Source: Profundicola chukchiensis
GTDB lineage: Bacteria; Bacteroidota; Bacteroidia; Flavobacteriales; Weeksellaceae
Reading direction: 5' to 3'
Length of the DNA stretch: 64,000 bases
Assembly: GCF_029664245.1 (NCBI RefSeq)
Contig: NZ_JANAIE010000004.1
Span: forward strand, 62,001-126,000
Position 1 is the first letter of the stretch; every line of letters begins with the position of its first letter. The notes under the pieces are model-generated. The model ran no database searches. It was not told where the DNA came from and saw nothing but the letters and a program-made list of their open reading frames with translations. Below, piece after piece: positions 5,045 to 57,960 of this stretch. The position numbers and the translations under genes were made by a program.

Positions 5045-6253
5045 TTATTTCACCAATTCATAAAAGTCTCTTTTCCCGATTTTGATTTTTAATCCTTCCT
5101 CCAAGTTAATATTGGTGTAAGGATCTTGAATTTTTTCATCATTAATACGAACGCCGCCGCCTTCTATCAATCTTCGGATGGCAGATTTGGTTTGTCCTTC
5201 TTTTAATTGAAAACTTAAGTCAACTAAAGTTAAACTTGAATTCTGAGCGTTTAAAGTTTTTATAGAAATAGGATCAAAGCTCTTTTCATCAAACTTTTTA
5301 TTTTGAAATTGATTTTCAAAGAATTCTTCTGCTTTGTTTGCTTCATCTTCATTATGATATTGCGAAATAATATTTTTAGCAATCACTTTTTTAATATTCA
5401 TAGGGTTTTCACTTGAGTTTAAACGTGTCTTTATTTCATTTTTAATATCAATAGAAAAATCAGTGGCTAAATCAAGAAATTCCTCGATCAAACTATCTGG
5501 AATCGACATGGTTTTCCCGAACATATCATTCGGCTCATCTGTTAAGCCGATGATGTTATTCAATGATTTACTCATTTTTTCTTTTCCATCCAATCCCTTT
5601 AACAAAGGCATACACATCACCGTTTGTGGATTCATTTCAAATGTTTCTTGGAGTTGTCTTCCCATGGTGCTATTAAACAATTGATCGGTTCCGCCCATTT
5701 CAATATCAGCTTTTATTTCTACCGAATCATAAGCTTGAAGAATAGGGTAAACCAGTTCATGCATGGCAATAGGCGTATTTTCTGTAAATCGCTTATTAAA
5801 GTCGTTTCGGTGCATTAGTTGCGCTACCGTCACTTTAGATAAAATTTGAATAATATCCGTAAAAGAAAGTTGATCTAACCAATCAGAGTTAAACACAATC
5901 TTTACTTTTTTAATATCCAAAATCTTTGAAAGTTGGTTTAAATAAGTTTGCGCATTGTGTTGAACTTCTTCGGCAGAAAGTGGTTTTCTACTTTTATTTT
6001 TACCAGTTGGATCACCAATTCTAGCAGTGAAATTCCCTACTAAAATCACAATTTGATGTCCTAAATCTTGAAATTGCTTTAACTTTTTAAGTACAACAGC
6101 ATGACCCAAATGTAAATCCGGCGCAGTTGGGTCAAAACCGAGTTTAATATTAAGCTTACGATTCTCTTTTTGGGCCAAAGCCAATTTTTCTTCTAGTCCA
6201 TTTTCAGGAAGAATAATTTCTACATTTTCTTTTAAGATTTGTAATGTTTCCAT
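5045..6253 (-). CDS. tyrS: Tyrosine--tRNA ligase
   Basis: Class I aminoacyl-tRNA synthetase that charges tRNA-Tyr in the cytoplasm. The HIGH-type motif is 'DLHLGHA' and the second signature is 'KMSKS', with the tyrosine-site stretch 'GGTDQLFNSTMGRQLQ' between them. The C-terminus carries an S4-type RNA-binding domain ('LIEGGGVRINDEKI'). I chose the start METLQILK at 6253 because an 11-residue upstream extension in frame would run through a perfect transcription terminator hairpin. About 402 residues is normal for the bacterial TyrRS family in this phylum. The gene is preceded by a leader peptide and terminator that probably regulate it by attenuation (see 6271-6468). Confidence 0.97.
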   Translation of the reverse strand: METLQILKENVEIILPENGLEEKLALAQKENRKLNIKLGFDPTAPDLHLGHAVVLKKLKQFQDLGHQIVILVGNFTARIGDPTGKNKSRKPLSAEEVQHNAQTYLNQLSKILDIKKVKIVFNSDWLDQLSFTDIIQILSKVTVAQLMHRNDFNKRFTENTPIAMHELVYPILQAYDSVEIKADIEMGGTDQLFNSTMGRQLQETFEMNPQTVMCMPLLKGLDGKEKMSKSLNNIIGLTDEPNDMFGKTMSIPDSLIEEFLDLATDFSIDIKNEIKTRLNSSENPMNIKKVIAKNIISQYHNEDEANKAEEFFENQFQNKKFDEKSFDPISIKTLNAQNSSLTLVDLSFQLKEGQTKSAIRRLIEGGGVRINDEKIQDPYTNINLEEGLKIKIGKRDFYELVK

Positions 6254-6270
6254 TTTGATTTTGTTGAAAT

Positions 6271-6299
6271 AAAAAAGCCCGAGCAATTGCTCGGGCTTT
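6271..6299 (-). terminator. Attenuator terminator in the tyrS leader
   Basis: A perfect 26-base palindrome (6274-6299; arm aaagcccgagcaa) followed on the minus strand by six T residues (6271-6276). It ends only about 20 bases before the tyrS ATG and 24 bases after the stop of the leader peptide, so it must be read through to express tyrS. Its 5' arm (CCGAGCA in RNA sense) is complementary to TGCTCGG inside the leader-peptide gene. Confidence 0.88.
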
Positions 6300-6323
6300 A
6301 GGTTATAATGTGTTTTTGATATC

Positions 6324-6428
6324 TTAAATTAAATTTAAAGTATACACATGCGCCTTCCGAGCAGGGATTATGATAGCATAATAAGTGCTGAAATAAGGAA
6401 GACGTAATATGTTGTTTAAATGTTTCAT
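6324..6428 (-). CDS. Putative tyrS leader peptide, 34 residues
   Basis: A short frame from ATG at 6428 to TAA at 6324-6326 encodes a peptide starting MKHLNNILRLPYFSTYYAII and ending IPARKAHVYTLNLI. It contains four Tyr codons, all UAU (residues 12, 16, 17 and 29). The RNA can fold in two exclusive ways: GTCTTCC (codons 9-11; 6397-6403) with GGAAGGC (6352-6358), or the overlapping TGCTCGG (6357-6363) with the 5' arm of the terminator. A ribosome stalled at Tyr12 would cover the first segment and free the second for antitermination. Being too short for ordinary gene callers, it is likely unannotated. Coding function is inferred from codon content and architecture. Confidence 0.7.
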   Translation of the reverse strand: MKHLNNILRLPYFSTYYAIIIPARKAHVYTLNLI

Positions 6429-6437
6429 TTACAGCTG

Positions 6438-6468
6438 CAAAGTTAAATCTTATATTTTTGATTTGCAA
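6438..6468 (-). promoter_or_regulatory. Promoter for the tyrS leader
   Basis: On the minus strand TTG (6466-6468), 20 bases, then TAACTTTG (6438-6445), matching TAnnTTTG exactly. The predicted start of transcription falls only a few bases before the leader-peptide ATG at 6428, so the leader would be nearly leaderless. Confidence 0.6.
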
Positions 6469-6675: not shown

Positions 6676-8229
6676 ATGATGAGAAAACATTCAGAGTTAA
6701 TAACTGCTTTGTTGATTGTATTTGTTGGAAGCTTATTTTCACCAGCATTTGCTCAATCGCTGCCCGAAAACTTCGATAATTGGGTTAAATCTGCACAAAA
6801 GGATTGGAAAATCCCTGGAATGGCCATTGGAGTCGTAAAAGATGGCGAAGTAATTTATGCCAATGGATTTGGTGAAAAAGAATTGGGGAGTGGAGAAGCT
6901 GTAGATGCCAACACGATTTTTAGTATTGCCTCGGTCAGCAAGAATATGACGGCCGCTGCATTGGGTATTTTAGTGGATGAAGGAGTTATTGATTGGGATG
7001 ATAAAATTACGCAGCATATTCCTTGGTTTCAAATGCAAGATCCTTGGGTGACGCGAGAAATGACAATTAGAGATGCTTTGACACACCAAGTTGGTTTAGG
7101 AAGAAAATTAGGGAATAGATTGCAATTTATGACGGCTAGCCCTAGAGATAGTGTGCTTTATCAAATGAGATTTATGGATCTAGAAAAACCATTTAGATCT
7201 GAATTTGTTTATAATAATGTGATGTATTCTCTTGCAGGACAAATCATTGAGCATACAGACGGCAGAACTTGGGATGAGTTTTTGACAGAAAAACTTTTCG
7301 CTCCTTTAGAAATGAATTCAACCACTACGAGTATTTCTCAAATAAAACTGAATGATAATCAAGCTTATCCTCACCAAGAAATTGAAGGCAAAGTTGTGCG
7401 AATTCAAAGAAGAAACTGGGACAATGCTGGACCTGCAGGTGGAGTGAACTCGAGTGTGAATGATTTGAATAAGTGGATGATGATGCAGTTAGGAACTTCA
7501 GGAGACTATAAGGGAAAAACTATTGTTTCGAGTAAGCAGATGAATGAAATTCATAAACCGCAAATGGTAAATAGACCCAATAATGCGATGAGTCCACAAA
7601 GTTCTTATGGTTTTGGTTGGAATATTTTAGACTATAAAGGAAAGAGAGTTTTAACACATGGAGGTGCTACCGATGGATTTAACACAGCTATGTATTTAAT
7701 GCCAGAGCTTAATTTGGGAATTGTAGTCGTTGGAAATACATTTAACTCCTTAGGAAATGCCGTGGCTTATCAAGTGATGGATGCTTATTTAGGAGGAAAT
7801 GAAGTAGATTGGAATCAGCGTTATTTAGCATCTTATCAAAAACGTTATGATGATGCTATGGCAGAGAGAAATAAGATTCATCAAGCAAGAGTTAAGAAAA
7901 CTAAACCAAGTTTGAAATTAGAAGATTATGTTGGTGTTTATCGATCCCAGGCTTATGGTAAAGTAGAAGTGAAGCAAGTTGGAAAAGATTTAGTACTTCA
8001 TTTTTGGGATACAGAAGGCTTAGAAGCAAAACTTGAACATTGGCATTATGATACTTTTAGAGCAGTTTGGAAAAATCCAGCTCAGCGTGAAGAGTTTATG
8101 CAATTTCACTTAAATAAAGATGCTAAAGTTGAGGCTTTAGATTTTGAGTTTAATTTAAGACCGATGTTGTTGCAAGTAGGAGCTTATCCTTCTAATTATA
8201 CTCATACAGAGAAATTTATCAAACAATAA
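6676..8229 (+). CDS. Serine hydrolase, beta-lactamase/penicillin-binding class C family
   Basis: 517 residues with a Sec signal (cleavage near FAQS). The catalytic SxxK motif is 'IASVSKNMTAAALG', the YxN motif is 'YNNVMYSLAGQ' and the third motif is HGG in 'THGGATDGF', the set of the AmpC/esterase EstB/DD-peptidase superfamily. The last 100 residues ('LEDYVGVYRSQAYGKVEVKQ') form the DUF3471-type beta domain often appended to these enzymes. It is periplasmic or secreted. Members hydrolyse esters or D-amino acid peptides rather than acting as clinically relevant lactamases; the substrate is unknown. It is a single-gene unit. Confidence 0.9.
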   Translation: MMRKHSELITALLIVFVGSLFSPAFAQSLPENFDNWVKSAQKDWKIPGMAIGVVKDGEVIYANGFGEKELGSGEAVDANTIFSIASVSKNMTAAALGILVDEGVIDWDDKITQHIPWFQMQDPWVTREMTIRDALTHQVGLGRKLGNRLQFMTASPRDSVLYQMRFMDLEKPFRSEFVYNNVMYSLAGQIIEHTDGRTWDEFLTEKLFAPLEMNSTTTSISQIKLNDNQAYPHQEIEGKVVRIQRRNWDNAGPAGGVNSSVNDLNKWMMMQLGTSGDYKGKTIVSSKQMNEIHKPQMVNRPNNAMSPQSSYGFGWNILDYKGKRVLTHGGATDGFNTAMYLMPELNLGIVVVGNTFNSLGNAVAYQVMDAYLGGNEVDWNQRYLASYQKRYDDAMAERNKIHQARVKKTKPSLKLEDYVGVYRSQAYGKVEVKQVGKDLVLHFWDTEGLEAKLEHWHYDTFRAVWKNPAQREEFMQFHLNKDAKVEALDFEFNLRPMLLQVGAYPSNYTHTEKFIKQ

Positions 8230-55910: not shown

Positions 55911-55920
55911 TTAATTTTGT

Positions 55921-56088
55921 CGCCGAATGGTGTTCCGGTTTAAAGTCGGAATGAAAAGGGAAAGCGGTTAAATTCCGCTGCTGTACCCGCAACTGTAAGT
56001 TTTATTAAGGTAAATCATTCAAGCCACTGAACAGCTCAAACGTTTGGGAAGGCCGATTTATCAAAAACAAGCCAGGAGACCTGCCATA
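55921..56088 (+). ncRNA. Cobalamin riboswitch
   Basis: Conserved parts in order: GGTG near 55929, the core 'aaaagggaa' and 'ctgtacccgcaactgtaa' (55980-55998), and the B12 box 'gccaggagacctgcc' at 56071-56085. An ACCTT-AAGGT hairpin (about 56102-56120) just before the btuB ATG can serve as the expression platform that hides the ribosome site when cobalamin is bound. It controls the following receptor gene and probably the propeller gene. Confidence 0.95.
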
Positions 56089-56127
56089 TTATGTATAAAT
56101 AACCTTCGGGAAAAAAGGTAAACTGAT

Positions 56128-57960
56128 ATGAGAATATATTATTTCCTGCTTTTTATTTTATTAGCTTCATCGGTTGAAGCTCAGATGGATACTATTCATT
56201 TAAGTGATGTGATTGTGTCGGATTCAAGACTTAAAAATCAATCCAAAACACAGCAAGTTTTGATTTTGAATGATTCTGTCATAACAAAAAACTCAAATTC
56301 ACTAACAGATTTATTAAACCTTAATTCTTCTATTTATTTCAAGGAGAATGGTGTAGGAATGGTTTCGTCGCCAAGTTTTAGAGGAACTACGGCACAGCAA
56401 ACTTCTGTTTTATGGAATGGAATCAGTATTAATTCAAGATTCTTGGGGCAATCTGATTTTAATTCAGGAACTGGAATTAATTATGACGAAATCGCTATTA
56501 AACCAGGAGGAGGTAGCGTTATTTATGGCTCGGGAGCGATTGGAGGAAGTGTGCATTTAAATAATAATTTAAAATTTAGAAAAGGTCTAGGAGTTGATCT
56601 TTTAGCAAAATATGGAAGTTTTAATACTTTAGGATTAGCTGGAAAATTCTCTAATTCTAATGATAGATTGAGTTATAATCTTTCTTATGCAAGAAACTCT
56701 TCGGACAATGACTTTGAGATTGAATCCAAAAATTATATTAATCGTAATGGACAATTTTGGAATAATACATTCGATGGAAGTTTGGGTTATAAGTTAGATG
56801 CAAGAAATCAGTTCTCTTTGTTCTTGCAAGCTTATCAAGATGAACGTCATTTTGCAATTGTTGAAGAATATGCAACCAAAACCAAATACGAAAACCAAAA
56901 TTTTAGAGGATTATTGACATGGGAAAATCGTTGGAATCGATTGAATTCTAATTTTAAGTTAGCCTTTCTAAATGAGGATTTTAAATTTTATGATAGATTA
57001 GAAGATGATCCTACATCTCATGGTAAGCTGAATTCGCTTATCGGAAAGTATGATGGTACATTTAGAGTTAACAACCAGCTCAATACTTCTTTTCTTGCTG
57101 AATATACCATTGATAGAGCTAAAGGCGATGGTAATGGTATTGTGAATCCACAAAGAAATACGTTGAACCTAGCTTTATTGATGTCGCATCAGTTGTTGGA
57201 TAAACTTTATTATGAAGCTGGAATTAGAACTGAGTTTACGGAGGATTATGAAAGCCCATTATTGTATTCCTTTGGTGTAAATTATAGTCCAATTAAGTTT
57301 TATGAAGCGAAATTTAATATTTCTAAAAACTATAGAGTTCCTAGTTTTAATGACTTGTATTGGGAGCCAGGCGGGAATTTGGACTTAAAAGCAGAAAATA
57401 GTCTTCAATTTGAATTGGGTCAAAATTTTACCTGGAAGAAAAACACGCTTGGAGTTAATTTGTATTATAACGATATCAGCGATATGATTCGTTGGGTGCC
57501 TATGAATGGATTTGTATGGTCGCCTATGAATACCGATGAAGTAATTTCAAAAGGAGTTGAAGTATTTACGCATCTTCAAAAATCATTTGCTAATCACCAT
57601 CTTCAATTGAACGCTAACTATTCCTATACCATTTCTAGAAACAAAGCAACCGAAAAACAATTGAGTTATGTCCCTTATCATAAAGCAAATGTGGCTTTAA
57701 CACATGCTTACAAAGATTTTTCTTGGTTTCTACAAGGTATGTATGTGGGAGAGGTTTTCTCTACCACAGATGAATCAGAAATGTTCAAAATAGACAAATA
57801 CCAAGTCTGGAATGCGGGTGTAAACTATGAATTTGGTAGTAATTATAGAATTAACCTTGGATTTAAGGTAAACAATCTTTTCAATTACTACTATCAACCG
57901 CTTTTGTATAGACCAATGCCTATGCGTAACTATGGTCTTCAATTGAAAATAAATCTTTAA
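56128..57960 (+). CDS. btuB: TonB-dependent cobalamin receptor (BtuB-like)
   Basis: 610 residues with a Sec signal (LASSVEAQ), a TonB-box-like 'DTIHLSDVIVSDSR', a plug (about 40-145, 'SSPSFRGTTAQQTSVLWNGI', 'PGGGSVIYGSGAIGGSVHLN') and a barrel ending 'MRNYGLQLKINL'. Size is close to E. coli BtuB and small for a SusC-type protein. Substrate is inferred from the cobalamin riboswitch directly upstream. The next gene begins nine bases after the stop, forming a B12 capture and uptake unit. No btuFCD genes lie in the window. Confidence 0.92.
   Translation: MRIYYFLLFILLASSVEAQMDTIHLSDVIVSDSRLKNQSKTQQVLILNDSVITKNSNSLTDLLNLNSSIYFKENGVGMVSSPSFRGTTAQQTSVLWNGISINSRFLGQSDFNSGTGINYDEIAIKPGGGSVIYGSGAIGGSVHLNNNLKFRKGLGVDLLAKYGSFNTLGLAGKFSNSNDRLSYNLSYARNSSDNDFEIESKNYINRNGQFWNNTFDGSLGYKLDARNQFSLFLQAYQDERHFAIVEEYATKTKYENQNFRGLLTWENRWNRLNSNFKLAFLNEDFKFYDRLEDDPTSHGKLNSLIGKYDGTFRVNNQLNTSFLAEYTIDRAKGDGNGIVNPQRNTLNLALLMSHQLLDKLYYEAGIRTEFTEDYESPLLYSFGVNYSPIKFYEAKFNISKNYRVPSFNDLYWEPGGNLDLKAENSLQFELGQNFTWKKNTLGVNLYYNDISDMIRWVPMNGFVWSPMNTDEVISKGVEVFTHLQKSFANHHLQLNANYSYTISRNKATEKQLSYVPYHKANVALTHAYKDFSWFLQGMYVGEVFSTTDESEMFKIDKYQVWNAGVNYEFGSNYRINLGFKVNNLFNYYYQPLLYRPMPMRNYGLQLKINL

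Follow-up and report, generated by a model that had tools for sequence, protein, structure and literature searches.

Among aminoacyl-tRNA synthetase genes, pheST of gamma-proteobacteria has been described as having a classical attenuator, and Streptomyces trpS and leuS as having candidate ones (PMC1262725). The leader analysed here lies upstream of tyrS2, a tyrosyl-tRNA synthetase (TyrRS) gene in a 64,000-nucleotide stretch of the Profundicola chukchiensis genome (hereafter the window). It shares with the Streptomyces systems a leader peptide containing cognate codons, an antiterminator and terminator, and the putative control of a synthetase. A further likeness is to the auxiliary, indolmycin-resistant trpS1 of Streptomyces, also an extra copy, which according to Vecchione and Sello is reportedly under ribosome-mediated attenuation. 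The tyrS2 leader differs from the trpS and leuS leaders in that it concerns tyrosine rather than tryptophan or leucine, belongs to the Bacteroidota, is predicted to sit on a near-leaderless mRNA, encodes a peptide conserved beyond the regulatory codons and forms part of a unit that apparently moves between orders.

A second point of comparison is tyrZ of Bacillus subtilis, which, going by the title of a 2015 report by Williams-Wagner (cited in PMC9437257), is said to be controlled by a T-box together with a MarR regulator. As far as that title goes, tyrZ resembles tyrS2 as a second TyrRS gene under transcription attenuation, whereas its sensor is a T-box RNA that reads the tRNA directly and that of tyrS2 would be a translated leader. 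For the Bacteroidota, the Bacteroid-trp motif (RF01692) has been described as a leader RNA (PMC2864571). Passages of a study of Flavobacterium psychrophilum infer leader-peptide attenuation for amino-acid biosynthesis operons and note structured 5' regions of synthetase genes, and its section on 5' regulatory RNA places alaS among the conserved 5' elements with no mention of tyrS (PMC9723704). These are, like the tyrS2 leader, leader RNAs of Bacteroidota, but they differ from it in the genes controlled, and RF01692 gave no match here. No description of this tyrS2 leader was found in the part of the literature that was covered.

The leader region and the second synthetase gene

The features of the region are collected in Table 1. 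An earlier note, made from the sequence of the window, had proposed a Tyr-rich frame of 34 codons and a terminator ahead of the synthetase gene. Both were confirmed in the sequence where it had placed them, and their conservation puts them beyond chance. The terminator stem (6299-6274) comprises 11 pairs followed by a T-rich tail. Segment 1 (6403-6397) can form seven pairs with 6358-6352, including one G-U, and 6363-6357 is complementary to the 5' arm of the terminator, so that both alternative pairings are possible at the positions first suggested.

Table 1. Features of the tyrS2 leader region, in window coordinates
Feature	Position	Strand	Detail and evidence
Leader peptide ORF	6428-6324	-	34 codons, MKHLNNILRLPYFSTYYAIIIPARKAHVYTLNLI; Tyr codons 12, 16, 17 and 29; homologues at all 80 named loci
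Leader codons 2-17, conserved at the amino acid level up to Tyr-Tyr	6378..6425	-	pN/pS and parsimony steps by codon position
Tyr16-Tyr17 regulatory codons (TAT TAT), presumed stall site	6378..6383	-	81/81 leaders; spacing to segment 2
Segment 1, GTCTTCC	6397..6403	-	core TTCC at 6400-6397; pairing with 6358-6352
Segment 2	6352..6363	-	6363-6357 to segment 3 (antiterminator); 6358-6352 to segment 1
Segment 3, terminator 5' arm	6288..6299	-	hairpin and pairing comparison
Segment 4, terminator 3' arm and T-run	6270..6284	-	hairpin; equivalent terminator in 79/80 loci
-7 box of Bacteroidota sigma-A, TAACTTTG	6438..6445	-	sequence; TAnnTTTG enrichment
tyrS2, auxiliary tyrosyl-tRNA synthetase, TyrZ-type	5045..6253	-	TIGR00234 match; ATG at 6253

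The product of the downstream gene matched TIGR00234 at 352.6 bits (cut-off, 113.8). The earlier note had named this gene tyrS; a synthetase gene does follow the leader, but it is a second, auxiliary TyrRS copy, which had been overlooked, rather than the tyrS of the organism. The other TyrRS gene of the genome (locus L001) has neither leader nor terminator, and all 24 genomes checked (23 from the named loci described below and the window's own) had two TyrRS genes that pass the family cut-off. The closest solved structures were 6bqy, 6byq and 1h3e for the window enzyme and 6n0w, 1jii and 2ts1 for the housekeeping copy. From these differing nearest structures it was deduced that the two copies belong to the two bacterial TyrRS subfamilies, which we take to be those named S and Z.

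Conservation, covariation and folding of the leader

Close relatives of the gene (71-83% identity) turned up at 80 named loci when public genomes were scanned; these loci span Chryseobacterium, Flavobacterium, Arenibacter, Gelidibacter, Vaginella, Sphingobacterium, Rufibacter, Fluviicola and others. The leader ORF was found upstream of tyrS2 at every one of these and at 29 of 29 further loci, and one simple scan detected an intrinsic terminator between leader and gene at all but one of the named loci. Neither leader nor terminator was seen at 27 control loci elsewhere in the phylum, where tyrS is single-copy and of another class (43-48% identity, local tblastn). The leader consensus is MKxLN(N/S)ILRLPFFSxYY followed by a variable tail; total length ranges from 24 to 37 residues, and both length and the C-terminal half vary. 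In addition to Tyr16-Tyr17, present in 81 of 81 leaders, a third tyrosine (Tyr18) occurs in 31 leaders. The distance from Tyr16 to segment 2 was 18-21 nt in 31 of 31 leaders, which puts segment 2 just past the stretch that a ribosome normally covers when Tyr16 or Tyr17 occupies its A site. This spacing fits a Tyr-stalled ribosome that would cover segment 1 and leave segment 2 free.

Two leaders departed from these patterns. At L133, the leader upstream of tyrS2 reads ILRVPFFSEYLLP, with Tyr17 lost and a single Tyr at the stall site. A Bizionia leader (L043:1819-1988) is without the usual segment 2 (GT---G), for which a shifted GGGCT/AGCCC pairing may substitute.

The pairings were analysed in an alignment of 31 representative leaders. 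The 2:3 antiterminator was paired in 88% of cells, compared with 14-46% in register-slid controls. Its column pair 68/162 was C-G in 20 leaders, U-A in 10 and U-G in 1, with none of the 31 broken, and each of the two columns changed twice on the tyrS2 tree. For the 3:4 terminator, 97% of cells were paired and both partners had changed in 20, a level reached by none of 500 shuffles. Segments 2, 3 and 4 read GCTCGG/CCGAGC/GCTCGG in most leaders, GTTCGG/CCGAAC/GTTCGG in others and GCCCGG/CCGGGC/GCCCGG in L061; they vary jointly because segment 3 is common to both 2:3 and 3:4. At the covarying segment 2 the encoded peptide switches from Ala-Arg to Arg-Ser-Gly.

The absence of a conserved frame or of conserved pairings in close relatives had been set beforehand as the result that would speak against the proposal; instead, the relatives keep the leader with its Tyr-Tyr codons as well as the terminator, and both the 2:3 and the 3:4 pairing persist with compensatory changes. 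The 1:2 pairing appears more weakly backed than 2:3 and 3:4. It was paired in 71% of cells, with a four-pair UUCC/GGAA core that is mostly kept and shows U-A to A-U covariation, the remaining pairs being lineage-specific. Ribosome-mediated attenuation, as originally suggested, is thus supported by the comparative evidence, but with a conserved four-pair core and lineage-specific helices in place of a fixed seven-pair 1:2 helix, and with a peptide conserved beyond its Tyr codons.

Folding calculations were made with the footprint of a ribosome stalled at Tyr16 removed, the footprint size being a value from general knowledge. The median probability of 2:3 was then 0.99, with 30 of 31 leaders above 0.5, versus 0.24 without the ribosome. 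Segment 2 was paired upstream with a median probability of 0.81, and 10 of 31 leaders already favoured 2:3 without a ribosome. When the full-length RNA was folded at equilibrium, the terminator won even with a stalled ribosome (P34 about 1). It was concluded that the switch must act kinetically, during co-transcriptional folding, as in classical attenuators.

Of 31 leaders, 29 carry the motif TAnnTTTG 6-10 nt upstream of their ATG, versus 10 of 682 background stretches. Given the position of the Bacteroidota -7 box relative to the transcription start (PMC9723704), transcription from the box TAACTTTG (6445-6438) is predicted to begin at about 6433, the position guessed earlier from the window alone, which implies a 5' UTR of about 5 nt and a near-leaderless mRNA.

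Taken singly, some of these features could be ordinary, since intergenic terminators are common and a lone 34-codon frame in AT-rich DNA is unremarkable. The hairpin would then be a plain terminator of an upstream transcript beside a chance ORF, with no regulation. However, the upstream neighbour in the window (6676-8229, forward strand) is divergent, and the leader, its Tyr codons, the promoter box and the pairings are conserved. This explanation is refuted by the frame conservation and the covariation, and we give it virtually no credence.

Distribution of the leader and tyrS2

Within the Weeksellaceae, the family of the window, tyrS2 was present in 114 of 296 genomes, and a leader profile matched the same 114 and one more, G965. 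In the latter (L159:1997-2430), a complete leader and terminator precede a tyrS2 cut to 87 residues, and this is a decaying copy of the leader-tyrS2 unit. Leader and tyrS2 are both missing from two genomes of the window's genus. When 395 Bacteroidia genomes were drawn evenly, tyrS2 was found in the window's own genome only, and in 395 genomes taken from the phylum the leader gave three strong matches, in the three genomes with a close tyrS2. Elsewhere in the window's own genome, a search for the leader returned weak, unconvincing matches only.

Flanking genes were common to tyrS2 loci within genera but not across them, and no conserved neighbour was shared with the window. The divergent neighbour noted above encodes a serine beta-lactamase-family protein with DUF3471 and is absent at other tyrS2 loci. 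For an empty-site comparison, the flanking lipoprotein gene was sought in same-genus genomes and was not found. In the tyrS2 tree, Sphingobacterium groups with Vaginella. Viral contigs contained no tyrS2, and plasmids contained only relatives below 60% identity. The co-occurrence, the unshared flanks and the tree grouping together indicate that leader and gene behave as one patchy unit that has apparently been moved horizontally, a conclusion drawn from the patchiness and the tree and not from a mobile element.

Constraint on the peptide and the proposed mechanism

The ratio pN/pS was 0.20 for codons 2-17, 0.11 for codons 7-13 and 1.09 for codons 18-30, and 1.5-1.7 in the other two frames. Parsimony steps on the tree at codon positions 1/2/3 were 7/7/47 for codons 7-13 and 40/47/38 for codons 18-30 (ungapped group). 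Both patterns led to the conclusion that selection acts on the amino acids preceding the stall site, also at conserved positions that take part in no RNA pairing, I7, L8, F12 and F13 among them. This in-frame constraint implies that the leader ORF is translated.

A hungry-codon attenuator needs just the Tyr codons and the RNA pairings, and the nascent chain may therefore take part. The arrest peptides TnaC and the Erm leaders are likewise under selection up to the stall site; for the tyrS2 peptide, arrest and any ligand are hypothetical. By analogy, the ILRLPFFSxYY peptide could aid a stall at Tyr16/17 or sense a drug or ligand, in which case the signal would not be, or not solely be, uncharged tRNA-Tyr. 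The strong constraint on codons 2-17, ending right after Tyr17, and the conservation of unpaired residues speak for such a peptide. On the other hand, the placing of two to three Tyr codons ahead of a TyrRS gene points straight to a Tyr-tRNA signal, no known arrest motif was recognised in the peptide, and its conservation could instead serve initiation on a near-leaderless mRNA or a trans-acting peptide. We consider an arrest peptide of this kind a serious possibility but rather unlikely. A nascent-chain contribution is the most interesting reading of the constraint, with a role in initiation or in trans also possible. A hybrid can be put forward tentatively, although we think it unlikely to be correct: the switch would read hungry codons, but the conserved ILRLPFFS, while in the exit tunnel, would make the ribosome more sensitive to slow decoding of Tyr codons, or else to a drug or a free ligand, and leader and tyrS2 would form a mobile, self-regulated back-up through which the cell would tolerate inhibition of its housekeeping TyrRS by drugs or other inhibitors.

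The rhizobial peptide peTrpL is reported to act in trans after its release from the ribosome, and the amino-acid-level conservation could be read as a similar function of the tyrS2 peptide alongside attenuation. The C-terminal half and the length (24-37 residues) are not conserved, however, and the constraint ends at the stall codons, which makes a trans-acting product very unlikely.

The selection on amino acids also bears on whether the RNA itself could sense tRNA or a ligand. T-boxes serve tyrosine genes in Firmicutes (PMC1262725), but RF00230 was not among the matches in the region at E values up to 5, neither the region nor ten relatives matched any Rfam family at gathering score, and the leader is mostly coding and under amino-acid constraint. 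A T-box or other tRNA- or ligand-binding riboswitch upstream of tyrS2 is therefore highly improbable. Bacteroid-trp (RF01692) was among the families without a match at gathering score, and Leu_leader scored 34.6 bits against a cut-off of 50; in our reading, such sub-threshold matches mainly reflect the terminator hairpin. NCBIfam contained no family for the leader peptide.

Two riboswitches were observed elsewhere in the window. A SAM-I/IV riboswitch (RF01725; 9759-9851, reverse strand) lies directly 5' of a 209-aa ORF (9705-9076) with no Pfam match, and a cobalamin riboswitch (55911-56102, forward strand) lies 5' of a 610-aa, TonB-dependent receptor-like ORF at 56128.

For tyrS2 itself, sequence comparison establishes the leader, its Tyr codons and their spacing, the covarying alternative pairings, the terminator and the tight linkage to a second copy. 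On this basis, the region is very probably a ribosome-mediated transcription attenuator of a TyrZ-type second TyrRS; from it we infer that the ribosome stalls, that tyrS2 is regulated and that it serves as an inducible back-up. Transcription would begin a few nucleotides upstream of the leader ATG. With ample Tyr-tRNA, the first ribosome would clear Tyr-Tyr, segment 2 would be covered or re-paired upstream, the 3:4 terminator would form and tyrS2 would be off. When Tyr-tRNA is scarce, because tyrosine is limiting or because the housekeeping TyrRS fails or is inhibited, the ribosome would stall on Tyr16/17 and cover segment 1. Segment 2, thus freed, would pair with segment 3, and RNA polymerase would continue into tyrS2. 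The examples of tyrZ in B. subtilis and of resistant auxiliary synthetases suggest by analogy that tyrS2 is likely an inducible back-up TyrRS, turned on when Tyr-tRNA charging fails.

With the tyrS2 leader, the known cases of synthetase genes controlled by leader-peptide attenuation would extend to tyrosine and to the Bacteroidota; the comparative support is unusually strong, and the element lacks an Rfam family. The constraint ending exactly at the stall codons raises the question of whether ordinary attenuators also use the nascent chain. For the bacteria that carry it, the attenuator would explain how a second TyrRS could remain off until charging breaks down, an arrangement for which antibiotic-resistant auxiliary synthetases offer a precedent.
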